In this document: positions 21,097 to 43,078 of the stretch, one piece after another
How positions within the stretch are numbered: position 1 is the stretch's first letter
How the letters are laid out: every line of letters starts with the position of its first letter
NCBI RefSeq assembly: GCF_024494645.1
Contig: NZ_JANHDJ010000005.1
Location: forward strand, 1 to 64,000
Source of the DNA: Halohasta litorea
GTDB lineage: Archaea > Halobacteriota > Halobacteria > Halobacteriales > Haloferacaceae
DNA length: 64,000 nt
Direction: 5' to 3'
Notes under the pieces: generated by a model
What the model was told of the DNA's origin: nothing
The model's database searches: none
The model's input: the letters and a program-made list of their open reading frames with translations, nothing else
Position numbers and translations under genes: made by a program

Positions 21097-21230
21097 GTGA
21101 ACTACCCCACCCTACTCGCTCACCGCTAACGCGCTTCGCTCCTTGAGGGTGTCGTCAGAAGCAAGGCTTCTGACTGCTAACCAGAACCTCCGGTTCTGGT
21201 GATGGGGCTTCCTGTTTCCACGACGCGCTT
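21097..21230 (-). ncRNA. Candidate omega RNA (reRNA) of the TnpB element
   Basis: The 3' end of tnpB and the right end contain two strong hairpins: CCAGAACC/GGTTCTGG at 21181-21199 and GTCAGAAGC/GCTTCTGAC at 21154-21174. A palindromic region follows, ending with the transposon end. TnpB omega RNAs are made from exactly this position and use the flanking DNA beyond the right end as guide. The guide would then be the minus-strand sequence just below 21097. Transcription is inferred. Confidence 0.5.
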
Positions 21231-22397
21231 TGCAGACACCGAATCGGTGTCCGTAGGGAGCGCAGTCTCCACAGGCGTTGATTCGGAGTATACCACTCCT
21301 ATGTGTTCAAGACCGCGAGAAAGAATGTTCCACGCCGCATTCGCGTCCCTGTCCGCCTCGAACCCACACGACGGGCACGTATGTTCGCGTACCCACAGCG
21401 GCTTATCCGTCTTGACGCCGCAGGAAGCGCACTCCTTCGTCGTATCTTTCGGGTCAACTGCAACAAAGTGCGTCCCCTTACGTTCGCACTTGTATTCGAG
21501 CATCCGGAGAAACGTCCCCCAAGCTGCTCCTGCCCGGTTGCGTGAGTTGCCCGGCAGTTCGATCAACCCCTTCGCGTCCAAGTCCTCGACCGCCACGAAG
21601 TCGTACTCGCAGGCGTAGTAGTTCGACAACTTGTGAAGGAAGTCCCGACGCTTCCGCTTGAGGTCGGCGTGGCATTCGGCCACAACTCGGCGTTGTTTCT
21701 CCCAATTCGCAGAGCCGTGTTCCTTCCGCGAGAGGTCGCGCTGTGCGCGTTCGAGTCGCTCACGTTCCTCGCTGAAATTGGGACTCTCGATGGCGTACCC
21801 GTCGGTGTCGTGTACGTATTTGAGGATTCCCACGTCGATGCCGACGAGCCGCTCGGGATTCTGCGGCTTCTCTGGTGTATCCTCGTCCACGTCGATGCCG
21901 AACGTGGCATACCACTCGCCCGTGGGTTCGCGTTTGACCGCGACCTGTTTGATGGTCGCATTCTCGGGGATGTCTCGGTGGAGGTGAATCGGAATCTCGC
22001 CAATCTTGCTCAACCACAACGTGGGCCGACCACTCGTATTCTTGAGTTCGAAGCCGGACTGGTTGTAGGTGAGCGACCGATACTCCCGAGGCGGTTTCCA
22101 CTTGAGCATTCCCACGGCGCGTCCGTTCTCCTTCTGTGCTTTGAGCGTAGAGAGGTTGTCGTAGACGCGCTTGACAACCATCTGGAGAACTTTCGAGTGG
22201 ACATCTCCGAGGTCGTCCCACCACGATTTGAGGTCGGGGAGTCGCCCCTGCACCTCGTAGCGGGCGGGGATGTTGTCTGCCTCGTTGAACAGGTGGAGGA
22301 CGTGATTGTACAGTTGCCTACAAGTATCGACGTGGTACAGAAGCTCCTCTTCGAGGGCTTCTGGCGGGTTGAGTCGATACTTGTAGTTGTAGTGCAT
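21177..22397 (-). CDS. tnpB: RNA-guided endonuclease TnpB
   Basis: The 406-residue product has an N-terminal HTH_OrfB-type domain and an RuvC-like nuclease with the three acidic residues Asp188 (GIDVGI), Glu271 (VAVEDLDAKGL) and Asp351 (DRDANAAWN). A zinc ribbon lies between the second and third (Cys323, Cys326, Cys341, Cys344). All catalytic positions are present and the frame is uninterrupted, so it may be active. TnpB cleaves DNA next to a target-adjacent motif using an omega RNA from the element's right end, helping the element persist. It starts three bases after the DUF2080 stop, so the two genes form an operon. Confidence 0.93.
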   Translation of the reverse strand: MHYNYKYRLNPPEALEEELLYHVDTCRQLYNHVLHLFNEADNIPARYEVQGRLPDLKSWWDDLGDVHSKVLQMVVKRVYDNLSTLKAQKENGRAVGMLKWKPPREYRSLTYNQSGFELKNTSGRPTLWLSKIGEIPIHLHRDIPENATIKQVAVKREPTGEWYATFGIDVDEDTPEKPQNPERLVGIDVGILKYVHDTDGYAIESPNFSEERERLERAQRDLSRKEHGSANWEKQRRVVAECHADLKRKRRDFLHKLSNYYACEYDFVAVEDLDAKGLIELPGNSRNRAGAAWGTFLRMLEYKCERKGTHFVAVDPKDTTKECASCGVKTDKPLWVREHTCPSCGFEADRDANAAWNILSRGLEHIGVVYSESTPVETALPTDTDSVSAKRVVETGSPITRTGGSG

Positions 22398-35461: not shown

Positions 35462-35538
35462 TTCTCTCAGCACTGTTCCATTGAGCGAGGGCTCCGTCGA
35501 GCCAAAGTGACTTTATCAATGCCGTGAGACAATCAATC

Positions 35539-36003
35539 ATGACCGGCGAGGATATCGACGACGTCGACCGGGCGATCCTCCAGGCGCTCCAGGAGGACGC
35601 ACGGAATATGTCGTCGGGCGACATCGCGGAGCGAACGGGGACCTCCGGCAGTACAGTCCGCAAGCGTATTCAGCGGCTCGAAACCGACGAGATCATCAAA
35701 GGCTACAGCGCGGAGATTGATTATCAGAAATCCGGCTATCCGCTCCGAATGTTGCTGTTCTGTACGGCCACGATCCCCGAACGCGGGGAGCTGATTCCGG
35801 AGATCCTCGCCATCGACGGCGTCGTCTCGGTCCAGGAGCTCGTCACCGGCGAGCAGAACCTCCTGGTCATGGCTGTCGGGGAGACCGACAGCGACATTAC
35901 ACCAGTCGCCCAGGAGCTGCTCGATATGGGCCTGACCGTCGCCGACGAGGTGCTGGTCAGAAGCCACGAGACCACGCCGTTCGGCGGCTTCGACCCCGAG
36001 TAA
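35539..36003 (+). CDS. Lrp/AsnC-family transcriptional regulator
   Basis: The 154-residue product has an AsnC-type HTH (about 4-58; DDVDRAILQALQEDARNMSSGDIAER, GSTVRKRIQRLETDEII) and a C-terminal RAM-like domain (about 65-140). It is the first chromosomal gene after the attachment site. ATG 35539 is favoured over GTG 35524 by a TATA-like CTTTATC about 30 bp upstream. It is paralogous to the element-borne regulator at 19539-20027. Tail-to-tail with the amidohydrolase gene (10 bp apart). Its targets cannot be deduced; nearby carbon-uptake genes are possible. Confidence 0.9.
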   Translation: MTGEDIDDVDRAILQALQEDARNMSSGDIAERTGTSGSTVRKRIQRLETDEIIKGYSAEIDYQKSGYPLRMLLFCTATIPERGELIPEILAIDGVVSVQELVTGEQNLLVMAVGETDSDITPVAQELLDMGLTVADEVLVRSHETTPFGGFDPE

Positions 36004-36012
36004 TTCTGTCGC

Positions 36013-37029
36013 CTACAACACAACGCGGTCGACGTCGAGGGCGGTCGCCCGCCGCACAACCGCCTCGACCGGGTCGGCGGTCCCCACGAGGTTGTCCGAC
36101 TCGCCGTCCAGGACAAGCAGTGCCGCCCGGCGGCCGGGTTCGATGACGCCGCAGTCGAGCCCGGCGATCTCCGCGCCCGCGGTCGTCGCCATCCGGAGGA
36201 CCGCCCGTGAACTGACATCGAACTCCTTGGCCGTGTAGGCCATCTCACGGAACATCGACGGCTCGTTGAGCATGACGTTGTCCGTCCCCAGCGCGACAGT
36301 CGTGTGATCGAGCAGCTCGCCGATTGGCGGGCGGCCGACACCGAGCACGGAGTTCGCGCGGGGACAGACCGCGATCGGAATCGACTGCTCGTCGACGCGG
36401 TCGAGATGTGGCTGCTCCGCGTGGACCATATGAACGAGGAGCTCCGGTTCCAGATCGATCGCCGGGTGGATGTCCGTGGCGTCGGGTTCGCCCGCATGAA
36501 TCGCGAAGGGGGCCCCTGCCTCACGGACGGCAGCACGCTCGGCGGAGAAGTCGGCGTCGTTCGCGCCGCTCGCACCGAACCCGTCGGCGACCTCCAGGAC
36601 GGCAGGATCGTCACTGCCGAAGATGAACGCGTCGACGTCCCGCCCGTCTTCGGCCGCCCGGAGCGCCCGCGCGCCTTCGAGTCCCGACTCGCGGAAGTCG
36701 AGGAACGCCGCGGTTCCCGTCTGCTCCATGAATCCCATCGTTCGGCCCATCGCCTCGACCAGCTCCTCGCGGCTCGCGGCGGCCAGTCGTCGGTGTTTGC
36801 GGCTGTCGGGTGGAGCGACCGCCTCATCCAGCGAGAGGCCGACGGCGGCCTCCTTGGCGACAGAATCGCCGATGTGGGTGTGGGCGTTGACGAACGCGGG
36901 GAGGATGATGGCCGTCGAGTCGGTGTCGACCCGTTCGACGGCCTCGATCCGCCCGTCGTCGACCACGACACGGCCATCGATCGGTTCAAACGACGCTCCC
37001 GCAAGGATCGTTCCCTCGAACTGTTCCAT
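36013..37029 (-). CDS. Amidohydrolase-family deaminase/hydrolase
   Basis: The 338-residue product has metal-binding motifs of the amidohydrolase superfamily: NAHTHIGD (HxH, about 55-60), FAIHAGE (about 187), LVHMVHA (about 213) and ALGTDNVML (Asp near 265). This fits the cytosine deaminase/MTA-SAH deaminase-like subgroup, but the substrate is unclear. ATG 37029 (MEQFEGTILAGA) begins the conserved N-terminal beta strand. The frame is open 84 codons further upstream with arginine-rich, non-conserved sequence, so the later start is better. Confidence 0.85.
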   Translation of the reverse strand: MEQFEGTILAGASFEPIDGRVVVDDGRIEAVERVDTDSTAIILPAFVNAHTHIGDSVAKEAAVGLSLDEAVAPPDSRKHRRLAAASREELVEAMGRTMGFMEQTGTAAFLDFRESGLEGARALRAAEDGRDVDAFIFGSDDPAVLEVADGFGASGANDADFSAERAAVREAGAPFAIHAGEPDATDIHPAIDLEPELLVHMVHAEQPHLDRVDEQSIPIAVCPRANSVLGVGRPPIGELLDHTTVALGTDNVMLNEPSMFREMAYTAKEFDVSSRAVLRMATTAGAEIAGLDCGVIEPGRRAALLVLDGESDNLVGTADPVEAVVRRATALDVDRVVL

Positions 37030-37181
37030 ACAGTGTGGCGCAGTCGGATCACGATATGGGTTTCTATATCTGAATATCGAACAGATCGGTAGAATTATGT
37101 CCGAATGGAGACCGATATGACTTCGAACAGGTGATTTCGAGTGGACCAACCGACCGGTCGAAAAAAAGAGGGTGCGTCCGG

Positions 37182-37862
37182 ATGACTGACGACGGTCTCG
37201 ACTCGCTTTTGGCGGGACTCGACGCGCAGACTCGATCTCCCGCCGAAGATGGTCGTGTGGACGCCGAATCGGGGACTGCACTCGTCGTGTCGTGTTCGAT
37301 GAGTCACCGGCCGGAGCTGTCGCTGTGGCCGATCGATTCCTCCTGGACCACCCACCGGGTCACGACACTCGGCGGCGTGAGCTGGCGCAGCCGGGACGGC
37401 CAGCGGGTCGTCGACGGGACGGTGACCCATCTCGTTGACGAGCGTGACGTCAGCGCCGTGATCGTCGTCGGACACACCCAGTGTGAGGTGATCGCTGACC
37501 TCTACGAGCGATGGCTCGCCCCGCCCACACGGGAGCCAGCGGGGATCGAGTCACGGTTCGGGCCACTGGAGTCGGTTGTCGACGACGCCGTCGAGGCTGG
37601 CGTTGTTGATCGGACGACGCCGCTTCGCTCTGCACGCCACCGCCTCGTCGAGTGTACCGTCGTTCGGGGGGTCGAACTGTTGGCCGAACAGCTCCCGTCG
37701 ACGATCACCGTCGCGGGCTACGTGCACGATCAGGACGGCGTCTACGGCACGTTCCCCGGAAAGCGGTATCTGGTGGCTGTCGACGGCGACACTGACACTG
37801 CCGAACTCGCTGCCAGACTCCCTGACGACGAGTCGATCCCCGTCGGGAGTCTGTGTCAGTGA
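37182..37862 (+). CDS. Beta-carbonic-anhydrase-like protein with altered active site
   Basis: The 226-residue product has the beta-CA Zn-ligand pattern: Cys38 in VVSCSMSHRP, then His98 and Cys101 in VVGHTQC. The usual CxDxR motif reads CSMSHR: the Asp that pairs with Arg and gates the zinc is replaced by Met40, and Arg is shifted one place. The spacing and fold-associated segments (ELSLWPIDSS, HLVDERDVSAVIVVGH) are kept. It may be a non-catalytic or modified enzyme. Located 211 bp upstream of dabB on the same strand, it probably functions with the DabAB bicarbonate/CO2 system. ATG 37182 is preferred over GTG 37131. Confidence 0.75.
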   Translation: MTDDGLDSLLAGLDAQTRSPAEDGRVDAESGTALVVSCSMSHRPELSLWPIDSSWTTHRVTTLGGVSWRSRDGQRVVDGTVTHLVDERDVSAVIVVGHTQCEVIADLYERWLAPPTREPAGIESRFGPLESVVDDAVEAGVVDRTTPLRSARHRLVECTVVRGVELLAEQLPSTITVAGYVHDQDGVYGTFPGKRYLVAVDGDTDTAELAARLPDDESIPVGSLCQ

Positions 37863-37964
37863 GAGTCCCCGGCTATCCGTCGACCGATTACCACGTCTGT
37901 GAGAACAAAAAACATAATGTTCTTTGATGCTATTTTTGCCGAACAATCTGGGAGGATAAAAGGA

Positions 37965-37972
37965 TTTAATAC
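37965..37972 (+). promoter_or_regulatory. Possible TATA box upstream of dabB
   Basis: TTTAATAC, preceded by purine-rich AAAAGGA resembling a BRE, lies about 100 bp before the dabB start in an AT-rich gap of the otherwise GC-rich half. It would give a leader of roughly 75 nt, longer than usual for haloarchaea. Confidence 0.35.
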
Positions 37973-38073
37973 ACAGTTTGTTCGTATAGAGTAGTGAAGG
38001 CGACGGCCTCCATTCAACCGGGTGTTTCGCAACGCGCCCGGTTGTCGCAGGCGGTCGGTGACAGAACCAAACG

Positions 38074-39564
38074 ATGAACCAACAGGATCAGCTGACGACG
38101 GTTGGATCGCTTCCGAACAGGACGCCATCGACGGGGCCACTCCCGGCGACGCTTACGCGGGTCGTCTGGCTGCTGTGGGTCGCGGCACTGGGTGTACTCG
38201 GCCTGCGGGTTGCGACCGGCGAGAGCTGGTCGTTGGCGGGTGTGATCGCCGTTGATGGCCTGACAGTCGTGATGTGGGTGGCGGTGACCTTTTTCAGCGG
38301 AATCGTTCACAGCTACTCGCGCCGGTATCTGGCCGCCCACGACCGCGTCGATCGGTTTTTCGCCACCGTCTTTGGCTTCACGCTGGTCGTCCTGGCACTG
38401 GTCGCGGCCGACCATATCGCGCTGTTCGCGCTGGCGTGGGTGGCGATGGGCCTGCTGATGGCCGAGTTGATCGGCCACGTGGAGGGATGGCCGCAGGCAC
38501 AGGCGGCGGCCTCGCTGGCCCGTCGCTACTTCCTCGCCAGCGGCGGGCTGCTGGCCGTTGCCCTTGCCGTGCTGTGGTCGGCGACCGGCACAACCACCGT
38601 CTCCGGAATCGCGGCGGCGGCAGACACGATCCCGCAGACGATGTGGCTCGTCGCCGCGGGCACGCTCCTGTTGGCGGCGATGATCCAGTCGGCGCTGGTG
38701 CCGTTCCACACCTGGCTGTTGGCCTCGATGACCGCCCCGACTCCGGCGTCGGCGCTGATGCACGCCGGGTTCGTCAACGCTGGCGGGGTGCTGCTGGTTC
38801 GCTTCGCGCCCGTGATCTCGGTCGACGCCGGGTTCATGCTGCTGGTCGTGGCCGTCGGCGCGGCCAGCGCGCTGGGCGGCAAGCTCCTGAAATCCGTCCA
38901 GGCCGATATCAAAAGCCAGCTCGGCTGTTCGACGGTCGGCCAGATGGGGTTCATGATCATGCAGGCGGGGCTGGGATTTTTCGGCGCGGCGATCACCCAC
39001 CTCGTACTCCACGGCTTTTATAAGGCCTACCAGTTCCTCTCGGCGGGCGAGGCGGTCGATCAGACCAGCCCGACCGACACCGGCCACGCTCCCGACTCGC
39101 TCGGCGCGGTCGGCTTCGTCGTCACCGTGCTGACGGCGCTGGCCGGTGGCGTTCTGTTCGCCGTTCTCACCGGCAAGGGAACGAGCCTCGACAGCGGCCT
39201 CCTGTTGGCGCTTTTGGTCGTGTTGACGACGCTGCATGCGACCCGCAACGCTCTCGCCCAAACATCGGTCCCACTGTCAGCGCGCTACGGCCTCATCCCA
39301 CTGGTGTTCCTGCCCGCCATCACGCTTTATGCGGCGGCATACAACGCCATCGCGGGCGTGATGAGCGGGACGATGCTCGTTTCGGCCCCCGCAGAGCTGA
39401 CAGTCGTCCACGGCCTCGTCGCGGCGGCATTCGGGGTCGCCTACATCGCAATCGAGACCGGCCTCTACCAGCGCAGCCAGCGACTGTATGTCGCCCTCCT
39501 GAACGCAACTCAGCCACCAGCCAGCACTGTCCTGACTTCCACGGAGGACTACAATGAGTACTAA
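38074..39564 (+). CDS. dabB: DabB-like membrane subunit of an inorganic-carbon transporter
   Basis: The 496-residue product is a NuoL/NdhF-type (proton-conducting antiporter) membrane protein with about 13 helices. It includes VTFFSGIVHSYSRRYL, LVPFHTWLLASMTAPTPASALMHAGFVNAGG (TM7-like) and STVGQMGFMIMQ. Alone it could be taken for a complex I or Mrp subunit. It overlaps by 11 bp the gene for a DabA-type protein, which is the diagnostic partner. DabAB energises bicarbonate or CO2 capture with cation flux. No other Nuo or Mrp subunit genes are nearby, which supports DabB. Confidence 0.88.
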   Translation: MNQQDQLTTVGSLPNRTPSTGPLPATLTRVVWLLWVAALGVLGLRVATGESWSLAGVIAVDGLTVVMWVAVTFFSGIVHSYSRRYLAAHDRVDRFFATVFGFTLVVLALVAADHIALFALAWVAMGLLMAELIGHVEGWPQAQAAASLARRYFLASGGLLAVALAVLWSATGTTTVSGIAAAADTIPQTMWLVAAGTLLLAAMIQSALVPFHTWLLASMTAPTPASALMHAGFVNAGGVLLVRFAPVISVDAGFMLLVVAVGAASALGGKLLKSVQADIKSQLGCSTVGQMGFMIMQAGLGFFGAAITHLVLHGFYKAYQFLSAGEAVDQTSPTDTGHAPDSLGAVGFVVTVLTALAGGVLFAVLTGKGTSLDSGLLLALLVVLTTLHATRNALAQTSVPLSARYGLIPLVFLPAITLYAAAYNAIAGVMSGTMLVSAPAELTVVHGLVAAAFGVAYIAIETGLYQRSQRLYVALLNATQPPASTVLTSTEDYNEY

Positions 39565-41983
39565 CACCACGATCGAAGACAGCATCGACCACGCAGCAAC
39601 CGCGGTCGGCGCGGCGTGGCCGCTCCCCTCCTTTGTGACGGCCAACCCGCTGGCCGGTTTCGAGGACCGACCGTTCCACGAGGCCGCCGCCGAGGCCGAG
39701 CGGCTGTTCGGCAGCGACGGCTACCCCAGTGCTGAGGTGTTCCAGGCGGCCTTCGACGAGGGACTCATCGAGCGCGAGCTCCTGGAGACCGAACTCGCCG
39801 ACTACGGCTACGACGCCTCGCCCGAGGCGCTGCTGGAGCAGCTGGCTGCGGCCGATGCCGACGCCGAAACCACGGACTCCGGTGACGACCCCCAGCAGCC
39901 GGTCGATCACCTGCTGACCAAGTGGCTGGCGGCGTTCCTCGACCAGGGCCACACCGAGTGGTCGATGCCGAACCGCGAGGACGGCTTTTATAACGCATTC
40001 CGCGCAGTGGCTCGCCACGACGGCGAGATTCCCGACAGCCGAACGATTGCCGACCTGCCCGAAGACCCGATTGCGGCCATTCAAGAGGTCCTCGCCGAGC
40101 ACCACATCGGCGACTGGTCGGCGATCTTCGAGTACCACCTGACGGCGCTGCCGGGGTGGACCGGACTCATCAAACAGCAGGCCGACGGCGGGGACGCCTG
40201 GCAGTCGGCGTATCCGATCTCGTTGGCCGACTACCTCGCGGTCCGTCTCGTCGTGGCTGATCTCCTGGACGCCCCCATCGAGCCACCGGCCGAGTGGGCT
40301 GCGAGCGACGAACCGAGCGACGGGGTTCCGCTGGCCGAAATCTGGCTAACTGCGTGGGAGCGCAGCTACCGCGGGGAACTGGTCGAGGCCGTCGCCGAAG
40401 CCAGCCAGTCGCAGGCTGATTCCGGCGACGATGGCCGCCCGGACGCACAACTCGTCTTCTGTATCGACACCCGCTCGGAGATTATCCGCCGCCACATCGA
40501 ATCGACTGGCAACTACGAAACCCACGGCTACGCCGGCTTCTTCGGCGTTCCGATGCGCTACGAGGGGTACGACTCCGAGGTGAGCGTCGATGCCTGTCCG
40601 CCGATCGTCGACGCTCAGCACCGCATCACTGACCGCCCCACGGCGGGCCACGACAGCAAACACGACGCCCACGACCGCTGGCACGACGCCCTCGGGATGG
40701 GCAAAGACGTCGTCAAAGCGCTCAAATCCAACGCTGCGACGGCTTTCAGTTTCGTCGAGAGTGCTGGCGCTGGCTACGGGGCCGCGCTGGCTGCCAAAAC
40801 GCTGGTGCCCGACCGCTTTGCGGCGGCCAAAGATGCGGCCGACAGCGCGCCACACGCCCACGAGTTCTGCGAGCCATCGGTCGACTACAACCCCGACGGG
40901 GTACACGAGCTCCGCGAGGGGCTGACCCACGAGGAAAAAGTCGAGTACGCCGAAACAGCCTTCGAGTTCATGGGCTGGGAACAGTTCGCTCGCCTCGTCG
41001 TCTTCACCGGCCACGCCAGCGAGACGTCGAACAACCCCTTCGACGCAAGCCTCGACTGCGGGGCCTGCGCCGGCAACCCCGGCGGGCCGAGCGCCCGGGT
41101 GCTGGCGGCGATCTGCAACGACGAGGACGTGAAAGACGCACTCCGTGCCCACGGCCACGATATCCCGGAGGACACCGTCTTCCTCGCCGCCGAGCACAAC
41201 ACGACGACCGACGAGATCACGCTGTACGACAGCGCGGTCCCCGAGAGCCACGCCGACGATCTCGACGGGCTACAGGCCGATCTCGAAACGGCTCGCGCTG
41301 GAGCAGCCACCGAGCGCGCCGACTCGCTGGGCGCAGGCGGCGACGGTGTCGCAGCGACCGACCGCCGCGCGGCCGACTGGGCCGAGACCCGCCCCGAGTG
41401 GGGGCTGGCTGGCAATGCTGGCTTCGTCGTCGGGCCGCGCGATCTCACGGCCGACTACGACCTCGACGGCCGGGCGTTCCTCCACTCCTACGACTGGGCG
41501 ACCGATCCCGACGGCGAGGCCCTTGAAGCGATCATGGCCGGGCCGATGGTCGTCACCCAGTGGATCAACAACCAGTACTACTTCGCTACCGTCGACACCG
41601 CGGCCTTCGGCAGCGGCTCGAAAGTCACCCACAACCCGGTCGGCAACGTCGGCGTCTATCAGGGCAACGGCGGTGACCTGATGACCGGCCTGCCGCTCCA
41701 GTCGGTGATGGCCGCCGACGGCCAGCCCCACCACCAGCCGCTCCGCCTCTCGACGGTGATCCACGCACCTGTCGAACGCGTGACCGAGATCCTCACCGAC
41801 AACGAGAACGTCGCCGAACTCCTGGACAACGGTTGGCTCTCGCTGACGGTCGTCGACCCAACCCAGGATCACAGCGCATTCCACTATGCGGGCGACCTCG
41901 AATGGACCGCTGTGGATGCCGACGAACGGATCACGGAGCCGATAGCGACGACGACGAGAGTAGCTCCCACTGCCGACGACTAG
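39554..41983 (+). CDS. dabA: DabA-like zinc subunit of an inorganic-carbon transporter (UPF0753/DUF2309)
   Basis: The 809-residue product is a UPF0753/DUF2309 (PF10070) protein. The metal ligands described for bacterial DabA can be mapped: Cys303 and Asp305 (LVFCIDTRSEIIRRH), His487 (FTGHASETSNNP) and Cys502 (LDCGACAGNPGG); the His-to-Cys spacing of 15 equals that of the bacterial protein. DabA is a cytoplasmic beta-CA-like protein that works with DabB to trap inorganic carbon. The start (ATG 39554, MSTNTTIEDS) overlaps dabB, so the two are coupled. The N-terminal CoA-binding-like motif SFVTANPLAGF is conserved. Confidence 0.92.
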   Translation: MSTNTTIEDSIDHAATAVGAAWPLPSFVTANPLAGFEDRPFHEAAAEAERLFGSDGYPSAEVFQAAFDEGLIERELLETELADYGYDASPEALLEQLAAADADAETTDSGDDPQQPVDHLLTKWLAAFLDQGHTEWSMPNREDGFYNAFRAVARHDGEIPDSRTIADLPEDPIAAIQEVLAEHHIGDWSAIFEYHLTALPGWTGLIKQQADGGDAWQSAYPISLADYLAVRLVVADLLDAPIEPPAEWAASDEPSDGVPLAEIWLTAWERSYRGELVEAVAEASQSQADSGDDGRPDAQLVFCIDTRSEIIRRHIESTGNYETHGYAGFFGVPMRYEGYDSEVSVDACPPIVDAQHRITDRPTAGHDSKHDAHDRWHDALGMGKDVVKALKSNAATAFSFVESAGAGYGAALAAKTLVPDRFAAAKDAADSAPHAHEFCEPSVDYNPDGVHELREGLTHEEKVEYAETAFEFMGWEQFARLVVFTGHASETSNNPFDASLDCGACAGNPGGPSARVLAAICNDEDVKDALRAHGHDIPEDTVFLAAEHNTTTDEITLYDSAVPESHADDLDGLQADLETARAGAATERADSLGAGGDGVAATDRRAADWAETRPEWGLAGNAGFVVGPRDLTADYDLDGRAFLHSYDWATDPDGEALEAIMAGPMVVTQWINNQYYFATVDTAAFGSGSKVTHNPVGNVGVYQGNGGDLMTGLPLQSVMAADGQPHHQPLRLSTVIHAPVERVTEILTDNENVAELLDNGWLSLTVVDPTQDHSAFHYAGDLEWTAVDADERITEPIATTTRVAPTADD

Positions 41984-42017: not shown

Positions 42018-42326
42018 TTACCCGTCACAACAGACGGTGTAGAACACGTCGCTCGTCAGGACAGTTTCGAGTTGGTCGCCGAGTTCCGCGGCTGACTCGT
42101 AGGGACCGAACTTGCTCACTGTCTCGCCGTCGGCTCGGAGCGTAAGCAGCCAGTGGGCCGCCTCCTCGGGGCCCTCGTACTGGCTGATTTCGAGTTCTCG
42201 GTCGGGGAGAGTGATCCGGTAGCCGTCGGCAGTCTCGGTGAGCGTCCAGGAGACAGTCGCATCGAGGGTTTTGTCGACCGTGGTGCGAACCTGCTCCTCG
42301 ACTGCTGATCGGCTGTCGACGGCCAT
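42018..42326 (-). CDS. Small conserved haloarchaeal protein, unknown function
   Basis: The 102-residue acidic protein (MAVDSRSAVEEQVRTTVDKT) has a central beta-rich region (VSWTLTETADGYRITLPDRE, EISQYEGPEEAAHWLLTLR) and ends FYTVCCDG with a Cys pair. I do not recognise a characterised family. It is convergent with dabA (34 bp) and divergent from the DUF6360-like gene, so it probably has its own promoter in the 63-bp gap. Confidence 0.6.
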   Translation of the reverse strand: MAVDSRSAVEEQVRTTVDKTLDATVSWTLTETADGYRITLPDRELEISQYEGPEEAAHWLLTLRADGETVSKFGPYESAAELGDQLETVLTSDVFYTVCCDG

Positions 42327-42389: not shown

Positions 42390-42683
42390 ATGTCCGACCG
42401 ACTCCTCTCAGTCAACGCCTACACGACCCTCGACCTGATCGACGGCGAGGCCGAGGCCCACGACTTTACCGAATCGGCCTATGCCGTCGTCAACGCCACC
42501 GCGCCGCGAAAGAAGCCCGACCACGTCAAACTGGAACTGGAGCTCGACAACGCCGAGTTGGAGCACCTTCCGGCCCACGCCGACCGTGTTCGGCTTACGC
42601 CGGAGCAGGCCCGCGAGCTGGCCTCGGAGCTCGAACGGTACGCCGCCAAAGTCGACTCGTATCTCGACGAAAGCGAGGATTAG
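42390..42683 (+). CDS. DUF6360-type small haloarchaeal protein
   Basis: The 97-residue product (MSDRLLSVNAYTTLDLID, then VKLELELDNAELEHLPAHAD, LTPEQARELASELERYAAKV) matches what I know as the DUF6360 family, a conserved haloarchaeal protein of unknown function. It contains a beta-rich core followed by a helix. It ends four bases inside the 3' end of the convergent next gene. Confidence 0.75.
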   Translation: MSDRLLSVNAYTTLDLIDGEAEAHDFTESAYAVVNATAPRKKPDHVKLELELDNAELEHLPAHADRVRLTPEQARELASELERYAAKVDSYLDESED

Positions 42684-43078
42684 GGCTCCCAGTCGACGCG
42701 CTCGCGCCACTCGTCCTGTTGTTCGCTCTCGGTGATGTGGTGGTCGCCGTCTGCGAGGTCGGCCCGGATCCGGTCGTCGAAGTCGGTGATATCCGAGAGA
42801 AAGCCGTGGCGGAACGTCTCGACGACCTCGTAGGTCCACATATCGTCGACCGCCCCGGAGGGGAGATGCTTCTCGCGGAGTTCGTCGGCGAACTCCTCGT
42901 GGCCCGCCTCGCGGAGGGCCTCCTCGGCGCGGGCGAGTTTGTCCATCGCGCGGCCGACTTTGTGGTGGAACGCGAGAAGGTCGCCGAACCCCTGATAAAT
43001 GTGTTCGGTCGCGTGCTGGATGTCGTGGAGGGCTTTCTTTTCGGCCGCCGAGAGATCAGGGTCGTCCTGGTCAGCCAT
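42680..43078 (-). CDS. Conserved haloarchaeal helical protein, unknown function
   Basis: The 132-residue, strongly acidic product is predicted to be mostly helical (SAAEKKALHDIQHATEHIYQ, GFGDLLAFHHKVGRAMDKLARAEEALREAG). It ends with a His/Glu-rich tail. No catalytic motif or membrane segment is visible. It overlaps the end of the DUF6360-like gene by four bases in the opposite direction. Confidence 0.65.
   Translation of the reverse strand: MADQDDPDLSAAEKKALHDIQHATEHIYQGFGDLLAFHHKVGRAMDKLARAEEALREAGHEEFADELREKHLPSGAVDDMWTYEVVETFRHGFLSDITDFDDRIRADLADGDHHITESEQQDEWRERVDWEP

Follow-up and report, generated by a model that had tools for sequence, protein, structure and literature searches.

A DabBA locus of a haloarchaeon with a carbonic-anhydrase-like neighbor and a conserved dabB control region

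The dab locus of Halohasta litorea, located within a 64,000-nucleotide stretch of contig NZ_JANHDJ010000005.1 (the window), contained the dabB and dabA genes, a carbonic-anhydrase-like gene (CA*), and a conserved dabB control region. The dabAB pair itself is known, common, and ordinary; for its surroundings, namely CA* and the control region, no earlier description was found. With a probability of about 0.7, DabBA is a regulated bicarbonate-supply system for carboxylases that is accompanied by a probably non-catalytic accessory protein. This reading draws on family membership, residue conservation, synteny, a conserved promoter, and hairpin covariation, all taken from sequence.

Overall organization of the dab locus

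DabA covered the entire PF10070 profile in a Pfam search (E 6.9e-263), and its sole solved relative was DabA2 of the DAB2 complex (9rd0_A, E 1e-102). DabB belonged to the PF00361 family (Pfam search, E 1.7e-36), with 9rd0_B as its top match among all solved chains. The two genes overlapped, as the sequence-only reading had noted, by 11 bp. That reading had assigned everything from 37182 to 41983 to DabAB; dabB and dabA are real, but position 37182 is the start of the separate CA* gene, which was absent from its text.

Of 71 haloarchaeal dab loci, 70 had the gene of an Lrp/AsnC-family regulator upstream of dabB, and the remaining one was cut by a contig end. The regulators at the dab loci were orthologs, with best matches of 210–334 bits compared with 95 bits for a paralogue within the window. 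The amidohydrolase-family gene was found by synteny at many, not all, dab loci.

Table 1. Features of the dab locus and its control region (positions in the window)
Feature	Position	Strand	Description and basis
Lrp/AsnC-family regulator	35524..36003	+	Pfam AsnC-type HTH; ortholog of the regulator upstream of haloarchaeal dabB
Amidohydrolase-family gene	36013..37038	-	PF01979, E 8e-29; divergent from CA*; synteny
Weak partial copy of dabB element ahead of CA*	37078..37097	+	Pattern match, suggestive only
CA*	37182..37862	+	Fold of a beta-carbonic anhydrase; C38/H98/C101 retained as zinc ligands; no catalytic Asp or Gln
Upstream conserved box CATAATGTTCT of dabB promoter	37913..37923	+	Enriched k-mers and consensus, 70 loci
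46-bp promoter/operator of dabB	37938..37983	+	Consensus, 70 loci; PWM
CGAAC box	37940-37950	+	Within dabB promoter/operator
TATA box TTTAATA	37965-37971	+	Within dabB promoter/operator
TGTTC box	37979-37983	+	Within dabB promoter/operator
dabB 5' leader with hairpin	37988..38073	+	Start inferred from TATA position; folding and arm-pairing test
Leader hairpin, outer arms	~37999-38010 and 38049-38059	+	Folding
Leader inner hairpin	38015-38044	+	Folding
dabB	38074..39564	+	496 aa, NuoL/Mrp-like membrane subunit; PF00361, 9rd0_B, proton-path residues conserved
dabA	39554..41983	+	809 aa, vectorial carbonic anhydrase subunit; PF10070, 9rd0_A, catalytic residues conserved

Active site of DabA and proton path of DabB

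Residues C303, D305, H487, and C502 of the window DabA corresponded to C351, D353, H524, and C539 of DabA2 and were conserved in all 71 haloarchaeal DabA proteins compared. The C, D, R, S, H, C, finger Glu, and Leu residues of DabA2 were identical in 71/71. The DabA subunit showed the whole profile and the Cys-Asp-Arg-His-Cys active site of a DAB/DAC complex, and DabB, a PF00361 member that adjoins dabA, kept the proton path of such a complex; path residues S256, H260, K310, S316, H339, H343, and K347 were conserved in 71/71 haloarchaeal proteins. In the solved DAB2 structure, the zinc was held only by C351, H524, and C539, while D353 was part of an Asp-Arg dyad, and substitutions of this Asp and Arg greatly impaired DabA2 function (PMC13144422). 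The four DabA residues previously described as metal ligands with identical spacing were therefore conserved, but one of them belongs to the dyad and is not a zinc ligand. The spacing was the same as in DabA2 only within C-x-D-x-R and from the His to the last Cys (15 residues), and the Cys-to-His distance was 184 in the window compared with 173 in DabA2.

As in Halothiobacillus, DabB and DabA would form a CO2 hydrase driven by membrane energy. CO2 would reach the zinc site buried in DabA and leave as cytoplasmic bicarbonate, and ion flow through DabB, together with the 'finger' glutamate of DabA, would make the reaction one-way. The coupling ion is presumably the proton.

DabB2 has a Lys235/Asp185 ion pair that tunes the DAB complex without strictly defining it; this pair was Gln/Gly in the window and occurred in 0/71 haloarchaeal DabB proteins. 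The K235 position was Gln in 70/71, and the D185 position was never acidic. The pair (Lys/Arg and Asp) was kept in seven of eight bacterial DabB proteins; the lone staphylococcal DabB examined was without it. Removal of the pair from DAB2 led to the loss of 30-60% of growth yield in a complementation assay (PMC13144422). As a counterpoint to the hydrase reading, haloarchaeal DabB lacks a pair that is required for full DAB2 activity (PMC13144422).

Distribution and physiological role

Of the 242 Halobacteria genomes sampled, 162 (two thirds) carried dabA, which ruled out rarity of dabAB within the class. The earlier view that dabAB is unusual outside autotrophs was not supported, on further grounds as well: HVO_2410/HVO_2411 had previously been named dabAB (PMC8305020), Halobacteria with DAB complexes are heterotrophs according to a review (PMC10880623), and MpsAB of Staphylococcus is a second heterotroph case (PMC8552792). 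Reports of experiments with a haloarchaeal DabAB were not found in the literature.

The distributions of dabA and of beta-carbonic anhydrase (beta-CA) were complementary across Halobacteria. Among 27 genomes without beta-CA, 25 carried dabA, and the full table (n = 242; both genes 137, dabA only 25, beta-CA only 78, neither 2) gave a Fisher p value of 0.0019, with related genomes counted as independent. The genome encoded PEP carboxylase, a biotin-type carboxyltransferase, and one RuBisCO-like large subunit. These carboxylases and the complementarity with beta-CA make the feeding of carboxylases by DabAB, which the sequence-only reading had suggested, the most likely reading. In the heterotroph host, the bicarbonate would most likely pass to PEP carboxylase and a biotin-type acyl-CoA carboxylase.

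The carbonic-anhydrase-like protein

CA* scored 20.5 bits against Pfam Pro_CA (PF00484), below the curated cut-off of 25.7. Its AlphaFold2 model (pLDDT 84.5) had the beta-CA fold, with a Foldseek E of 2e-7 and TM-scores of ~0.5 against beta-CAs. The Cys-His-Cys zinc ligands were kept in 18/18 copies. At the C-x-D-x-R dyad, Asp was found in 0/18 copies, with Met or Leu in its place in all of them, and Arg in 2/18. The transition-state Gln/His, located nine residues ahead of the first Cys in canonical haloarchaeal beta-CAs, was found in 0/18. A conserved Cys five residues past the first ligand was rejected as a fourth zinc ligand; it was missing in the window and at loci L148, L150, and L151, and is therefore not general in CA*. 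Judged from these residues, CA* is probably non-catalytic: it would be a zinc-binding protein of beta-CA fold, most likely without CO2 hydration, and would serve DabBA as an optional accessory or regulator. The one public record examined names it 'carbonic anhydrase'. No description of a carbonic-anhydrase-like companion without catalytic residues beside dabBA was found in the literature.

The 18 intact copies formed one clade (support 100/100), and in each case dabB was the next gene downstream, on the same strand. CA* was present in 13/392 genomes, which ruled out that it is common to all dab loci. At least 11 gains or losses were placed on the DabA tree, and one copy was broken by a stop codon; CA* is dispensable because of this patchiness, turnover, and interruption. 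No credible match to a CA* remnant was found by tblastn in two same-genus loci without CA*. A canonical beta-CA was found elsewhere in every CA* genome checked, with two in the genome of the window. In addition to the zinc ligands, some 30 columns did not vary among ten divergent copies. The dN/dS of CA* was ~0.2-0.4 in the better-separated pairs, and it was higher than that of dabA and dabB in most close pairs.

Promoter and leader of dabB

Across 2.28 million positions, nearly all PWM matches of the dabB element were dabB promoters, and a search of the 3.8-Mb genome that allowed up to three mismatches found the element once. Expression of dabBA would be set by this dedicated element, the probable target of the neighboring Lrp-family regulator. 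The promoter lies between CA* and dabB, and CA* may therefore have separate transcription. The pattern of the partial copy ahead of CA* had two matches with up to two mismatches in the window, compared with 0.16 expected. Control of CA* by the dabB operator was rejected, as this match was weak and partial and the PWM scan gave none. No bacterial sigma-70 promoters were found, as expected for an archaeon.

The leader of the window folded with a z value of -3.48, and the mean over 70 leaders was -1.53. Sequence-based alignment of the leaders contained only four nearly invariant pairs, and covariation was therefore tested alignment-free. The hairpin arms paired with their own partners beyond chance (p <= 1e-4), and pairing was kept while the sequence and spacing of the arms varied. 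The hairpin possibly tunes expression. A leader peptide was rejected, as the frame from a common GTG was not kept between loci. Neither the window nor seven other dab loci contained a credible Rfam match, and no description of a class-wide dabB control region with a folded mRNA leader was found in the literature.

Alternative explanations

Haloarchaea live with large sodium gradients. These gradients, and the missing ion pair that haloarchaeal DabB has in common with the staphylococcal protein and not with most bacterial ones, would suit a sodium/bicarbonate symporter like Staphylococcus MpsAB in place of a proton-driven CO2 hydrase. We consider such symport quite unlikely, since DabA keeps its entire CO2-hydrase active site with the gating residues, and DabB its proton path, in every haloarchaeal protein compared, and the mode of action of MpsAB is itself disputed (PMC13144422). 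The leader hairpin could also be a DNA operator dyad and not an RNA structure. Proteins bind inverted repeats, and the reverse complement of the leaders folded above chance, with a mean z of -0.97; however, the transcribed strand folded better, the arms still pair despite their variation, and the hairpin lies downstream of the TATA box, inside the inferred transcript. A dyad is a serious but minority possibility, and the RNA hairpin is preferred.

CA* might be an active, ordinary carbonic anhydrase of the same operon in which Met/Leu and neighboring residues replace the Asp-Arg dyad. The fold and the three zinc ligands agree with this, as do canonical beta-CAs that other haloarchaea encode beside dabBA (downstream on the same strand, convergent, or divergent) and a beta-CA beside the pair in some Firmicutes (PMC8552792). 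Activity is nevertheless improbable, given the loss of Asp and of the transition-state Gln in every copy and of Arg in all but two, the impairment of DabA2 by Asp and Arg substitutions (PMC13144422), and the canonical enzyme already encoded in each CA* genome checked. It is also doubtful that CA* is a decaying relic of an ancestral operon enzyme. The patchy distribution with many losses, the interrupted copy, and the dN/dS above that of dabA and dabB in most pairs would fit decay, whereas the dN/dS stays well below 1 across deep divergence, the position is always the same, the ligands and the some 30 columns are invariant, and a relic should lose its zinc ligands as well. A probably non-catalytic accessory protein remains the preferred reading of CA*.

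Implications

In a bolder reading, to which we give only tentative credence, CA* is a zinc-binding pseudo-carbonic-anhydrase that acts as a dedicated bicarbonate/CO2-sensing or gating DAB subunit in some haloarchaea, and dabBA is controlled throughout the class by a dedicated Lrp operator and a structured leader RNA. If true, archaea would have a control circuit that is built from these elements and responds to inorganic carbon. As argued in PMC8552792, a bicarbonate pump should be short-circuited by carbonic anhydrase in the cytoplasm; CA*, with fold and zinc ligands kept and catalytic residues lost, is a possible answer to this problem. Most work on DabAB concerns autotrophs and pathogens. 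It is also widespread, with a conserved control region, in this class of heterotrophic archaea, and Haloferax-type laboratory strains could therefore reveal its role outside carbon fixers and how inorganic carbon is sensed.

Comparison with known systems

The DAB2 complex of Halothiobacillus neapolitanus (DabA2/DabB2, Hneap_0211/0212, PDB 9rd0) was matched in both subunits, the zinc site, the Asp-Arg dyad, finger Glu444, Leu658, most tunnel residues, and the DabB proton-path residues. The locus differed in its heterotrophic archaeal host, in tunnel residues of haloarchaeal DabA (Phe375 to Tyr and Ala703 to Gly), in the missing DabB K235/D185 pair, and in the CA* gene upstream of dabB. The regulator genes were of Lrp type at haloarchaeal dab loci and of LysR type beside several bacterial copies. 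HVO_2410/HVO_2411 (dabA/dabB) of Haloferax volcanii belong to the same family and class and were named dabAB; carbonic anhydrase is absent from the main text of that paper (PMC8305020). MpsAB of Staphylococcus aureus is of the same two-gene family in a heterotroph host, and supplies inorganic carbon interchangeably with carbonic anhydrase (PMC8552792). It differs as a proposed sodium/bicarbonate symporter, and CA* was not upstream in the one staphylococcal locus examined.

CA* shares the fold and Cys-His-Cys zinc ligands of canonical beta-CAs (PF00484) and differs by its lost Asp (18/18), Gln (18/18), and Arg (16/18) and its score below the Pfam cut-off. Mammalian CA VIII, according to PMC13253706, is similarly a catalytically silent carbonic anhydrase kept as a regulator. 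It is of the alpha class with an unrelated fold, and CA VIII has lost a zinc ligand, whereas CA* has lost the Asp and Gln.

DabA and DabB

The two genes of the dab locus lay on the same strand and overlapped by 11 bp; an overlap had been noted in the sequence-only reading. Residues were numbered according to the DabA2/DabB2 complex of Halothiobacillus neapolitanus (DAB2, PDB code 9rd0), with functional residues taken from PMC13144422; the numbered segments were those in the alignments to the solved structure and were verified against named residues. In the window protein and in each of 71 haloarchaeal DabA proteins, the zinc ligands of DabA2, its Asp-Arg dyad, its finger glutamate (Glu444), and Leu658 were all conserved, as were most tunnel residues. 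Four metal ligands with identical spacing had been proposed for DabA. The residues were all kept, but the solved structure shows zinc bound by only three of them, and the distance from Cys to His was 184 in the window versus 173 in DabA2.

Features of the dab locus and other genes of the window
Feature	Coordinates	Strand	Observation
Subtilase-family protein, 1626 aa	8640-13520	+	Probably a large secreted protease
IS605-type transposase	21180-22397	-	Cas12f1-like TNB domain (TnpB/OrfB type)
ORF of 768 aa	30691-32997	+	No Pfam match at E 1e-5
Lrp/AsnC regulator gene	35524-36003		Ortholog upstream of dabB in 70/71 loci
Amidohydrolase-family gene	36013-37038	-	Many dab loci of haloarchaea have it between the Lrp gene and dabB; closest NCBIfam model chlorohydrolase, under cut-off; no obvious tie to carbon uptake
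CA* gene, 226 aa	37182-37862	+	Pro_CA match of 20.5 bits, under the cut-off of 25.7
Promoter consensus match	37940-37983		Only match with at most 3 mismatches in the 3.8-Mb genome; reversed control 0
dabB	38074-39564	+	Best solved match DabB2 of DAB2
dabA	39554-41983	+	Full-length PF10070 match, E 6.9e-263; sole solved match DabA2 of DAB2
Small gene downstream of dabA	42018-42326	-	Kept in same-genus loci L109 and L110
Small gene downstream of dabA	42390-42683	+	Kept in L109 and L110; DUF6360, function unknown, the one Pfam match among the three
Small gene downstream of dabA	42680-43078	-	Kept in L109 and L110

The proton-path residues Ser256, His260, Lys310, Ser316, His339, His343, and Lys347 of DabB were kept in all 71 haloarchaeal proteins. 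The ion pairs of DAB2, whose loss lowers growth yield by 30–60%, include Lys235/Asp185 of DabB2 (PMC13144422). This pair was absent from the 71 haloarchaeal DabB proteins compared, in which position 235 was Gln (70/71) or Arg (1/71) and position 185 was Ser, Gly, Thr, or Ala. Lys or Arg together with Asp was retained in seven of the eight bacterial DabB proteins compared, with the exception of staphylococcal DabB. With the ion pair missing, coupling in haloarchaeal DabB may differ from that in DAB2.

A carbonic anhydrase-like companion of dabB

The gene adjoining dabB, which lay inside the interval of the sequence-only reading and was overlooked there, encoded a protein of the β-carbonic anhydrase (β-CA) fold, termed CA* together with its relatives lacking catalytic residues. 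The AlphaFold2 model had a pLDDT of 84.5 (21-row alignment), and a PDB structure search with this model gave β-CAs (best E 2.4e-7, probability 1.00, TM about 0.53). Searched with a profile of ten copies, 392 Halobacteria genomes yielded 13 loci scoring at least 200 bits; the next score was 170 bits, a level at which the copies inspected were canonical β-CAs. In the alignment of 18 intact copies, from which the residue states of L100, L145, and L147 were read, the three zinc ligands were present in all, the catalytic Asp was replaced by Met or Leu in all, and the Gln located nine positions N-terminal of the first Cys was missing from all; the dyad Arg persisted in two (loci L099 and L151). Canonical β-CAs of the same order, including that of the window genome, retained Gln, Asp, and Arg, and the dyad was intact in all canonical β-CA loci retrieved from ten CA* genomes. 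By these residues, CA* is a dyad-less β-CA-like companion keeping the zinc site. A Halorussus pelagicus plasmid record labels the CA* gene plain 'carbonic anhydrase' (WP_128478739.1).

CA* was the immediate upstream neighbour of dabB, on the same strand, in 18/18 intact copies, and the copies formed a single clade against 37 canonical sequences (support 100/100). The 14 changes of CA* on the DabA tree, at least 11 of them on strongly supported branches, indicate that it was lost or moved many times. The Halobaculum gomorrense copy (L005/L111) was interrupted by a stop codon. The dN/dS values, mostly 0.2–0.4 in pairs with enough divergence, were low but usually above those of dabA and dabB, which represents a constrained, though more loosely constrained, gene. 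One genome (G147) contained two dab loci, L101 and L113, one with CA* and one without, and a second dabA match was also found in genomes G059, G100, G105, G115, and G179.

Control region and leader of dabB

The control region was compared in 71 loci picked for spread over genera, yet enriched in CA* loci. The sole locus without an Lrp ortholog upstream of dabB was truncated by a contig end. Upstream of dabB, CATAATGTTCT, a CGAACgaTTTG box, a TTTAATA TATA box, and a TGTTC box were conserved class-wide with fixed spacing. A 46-bp position weight matrix gave 83 matches over 2.28 million positions, 70 of which were dabB promoters; since the scanned sequences were part of the training set, the match number is no independent test. 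A 57-bit match in locus L194 was consistent with its dabB promoter, the start being misjudged, and most of the others were weak matches to the same element read in reverse. It is gene position that suggests binding of the Lrp protein to this element.

The distance from the TATA region to the dabB start was 54–95 nt. For 70 leaders, folding of the transcribed strand had a mean z of -1.53 ± 0.16 (standard error) and that of the reverse strand -0.97, versus -0.27 upstream of the promoter and +0.26 in the first dabB codons. Among 18 leaders selected for dissimilarity, the mean pairing of a 5' arm was stronger with the 3' part of the same leader than with the 3' parts of the other leaders (permutation p ≤ 1e-4, z -4.3). 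These values support a hairpin of varying sequence retained in dabB leaders, a candidate RNA or DNA element. The leader matched no Rfam family. A literature search, without subscription papers and preprints, gave no description of CA*, the promoter element with structured leader, or the missing ion pair.

Distribution and comparison with known systems

In a profile search, PF10070 was present in 110/148 genomes of the same family and 162/242 of the class. The earlier view, that most known traps of this kind come from autotrophic or CO2-dependent bacteria, is a poor guide to this class. The name dabAB was already given to HVO_2410/2411 of Haloferax volcanii (PMC8305020), and a 2024 review mentions heterotrophic Halobacteria carrying these complexes (PMC10880623). 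The window genome encodes a PEP carboxylase, a biotin-type carboxyltransferase, and a RuBisCO-like large subunit; users of bicarbonate and CO2 therefore exist, which fits the suggestion that DabAB may feed carboxylases.

Among the 242 genomes, 137 had both dabA and β-CA, 25 only dabA, 78 only β-CA, and 2 neither (Fisher p 0.0019), as compiled by hand from genome lists with one genome lacking both deduced from totals. Because related genomes are non-independent, this is support, not proof, that dabA and β-CA can replace each other in haloarchaea. In Staphylococcus, the two systems were shown to stand in for one another (PMC8552792).

In haloarchaea without CA*, dyad-bearing canonical β-CA genes often adjoined dabBA, either 3' on the same strand (L104, L107, and L114), convergent (L158, L154, and L189 among examples), or upstream on either strand (L105, L106, L174, L180, and L188). 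On a Mycolicibacterium aubagnense plasmid (L222:6526-7465), four genes stood in a row: dabB, dabA, a small one annotated as a transcriptional regulator, and one for a carbonic anhydrase. In Nitrobacter (L224:6586-6912), a P-II-type gene followed dabA. A putative carbonic anhydrase was reported next to the gene pair in three Firmicutes (PMC8552792). The repeated adjacency indicates a recurrent link between the two functions; coexistence of a carbonic anhydrase with the pump has been argued to be wasteful. Neither DabAB nor its occurrence here is new; the novelty lies in its surroundings.
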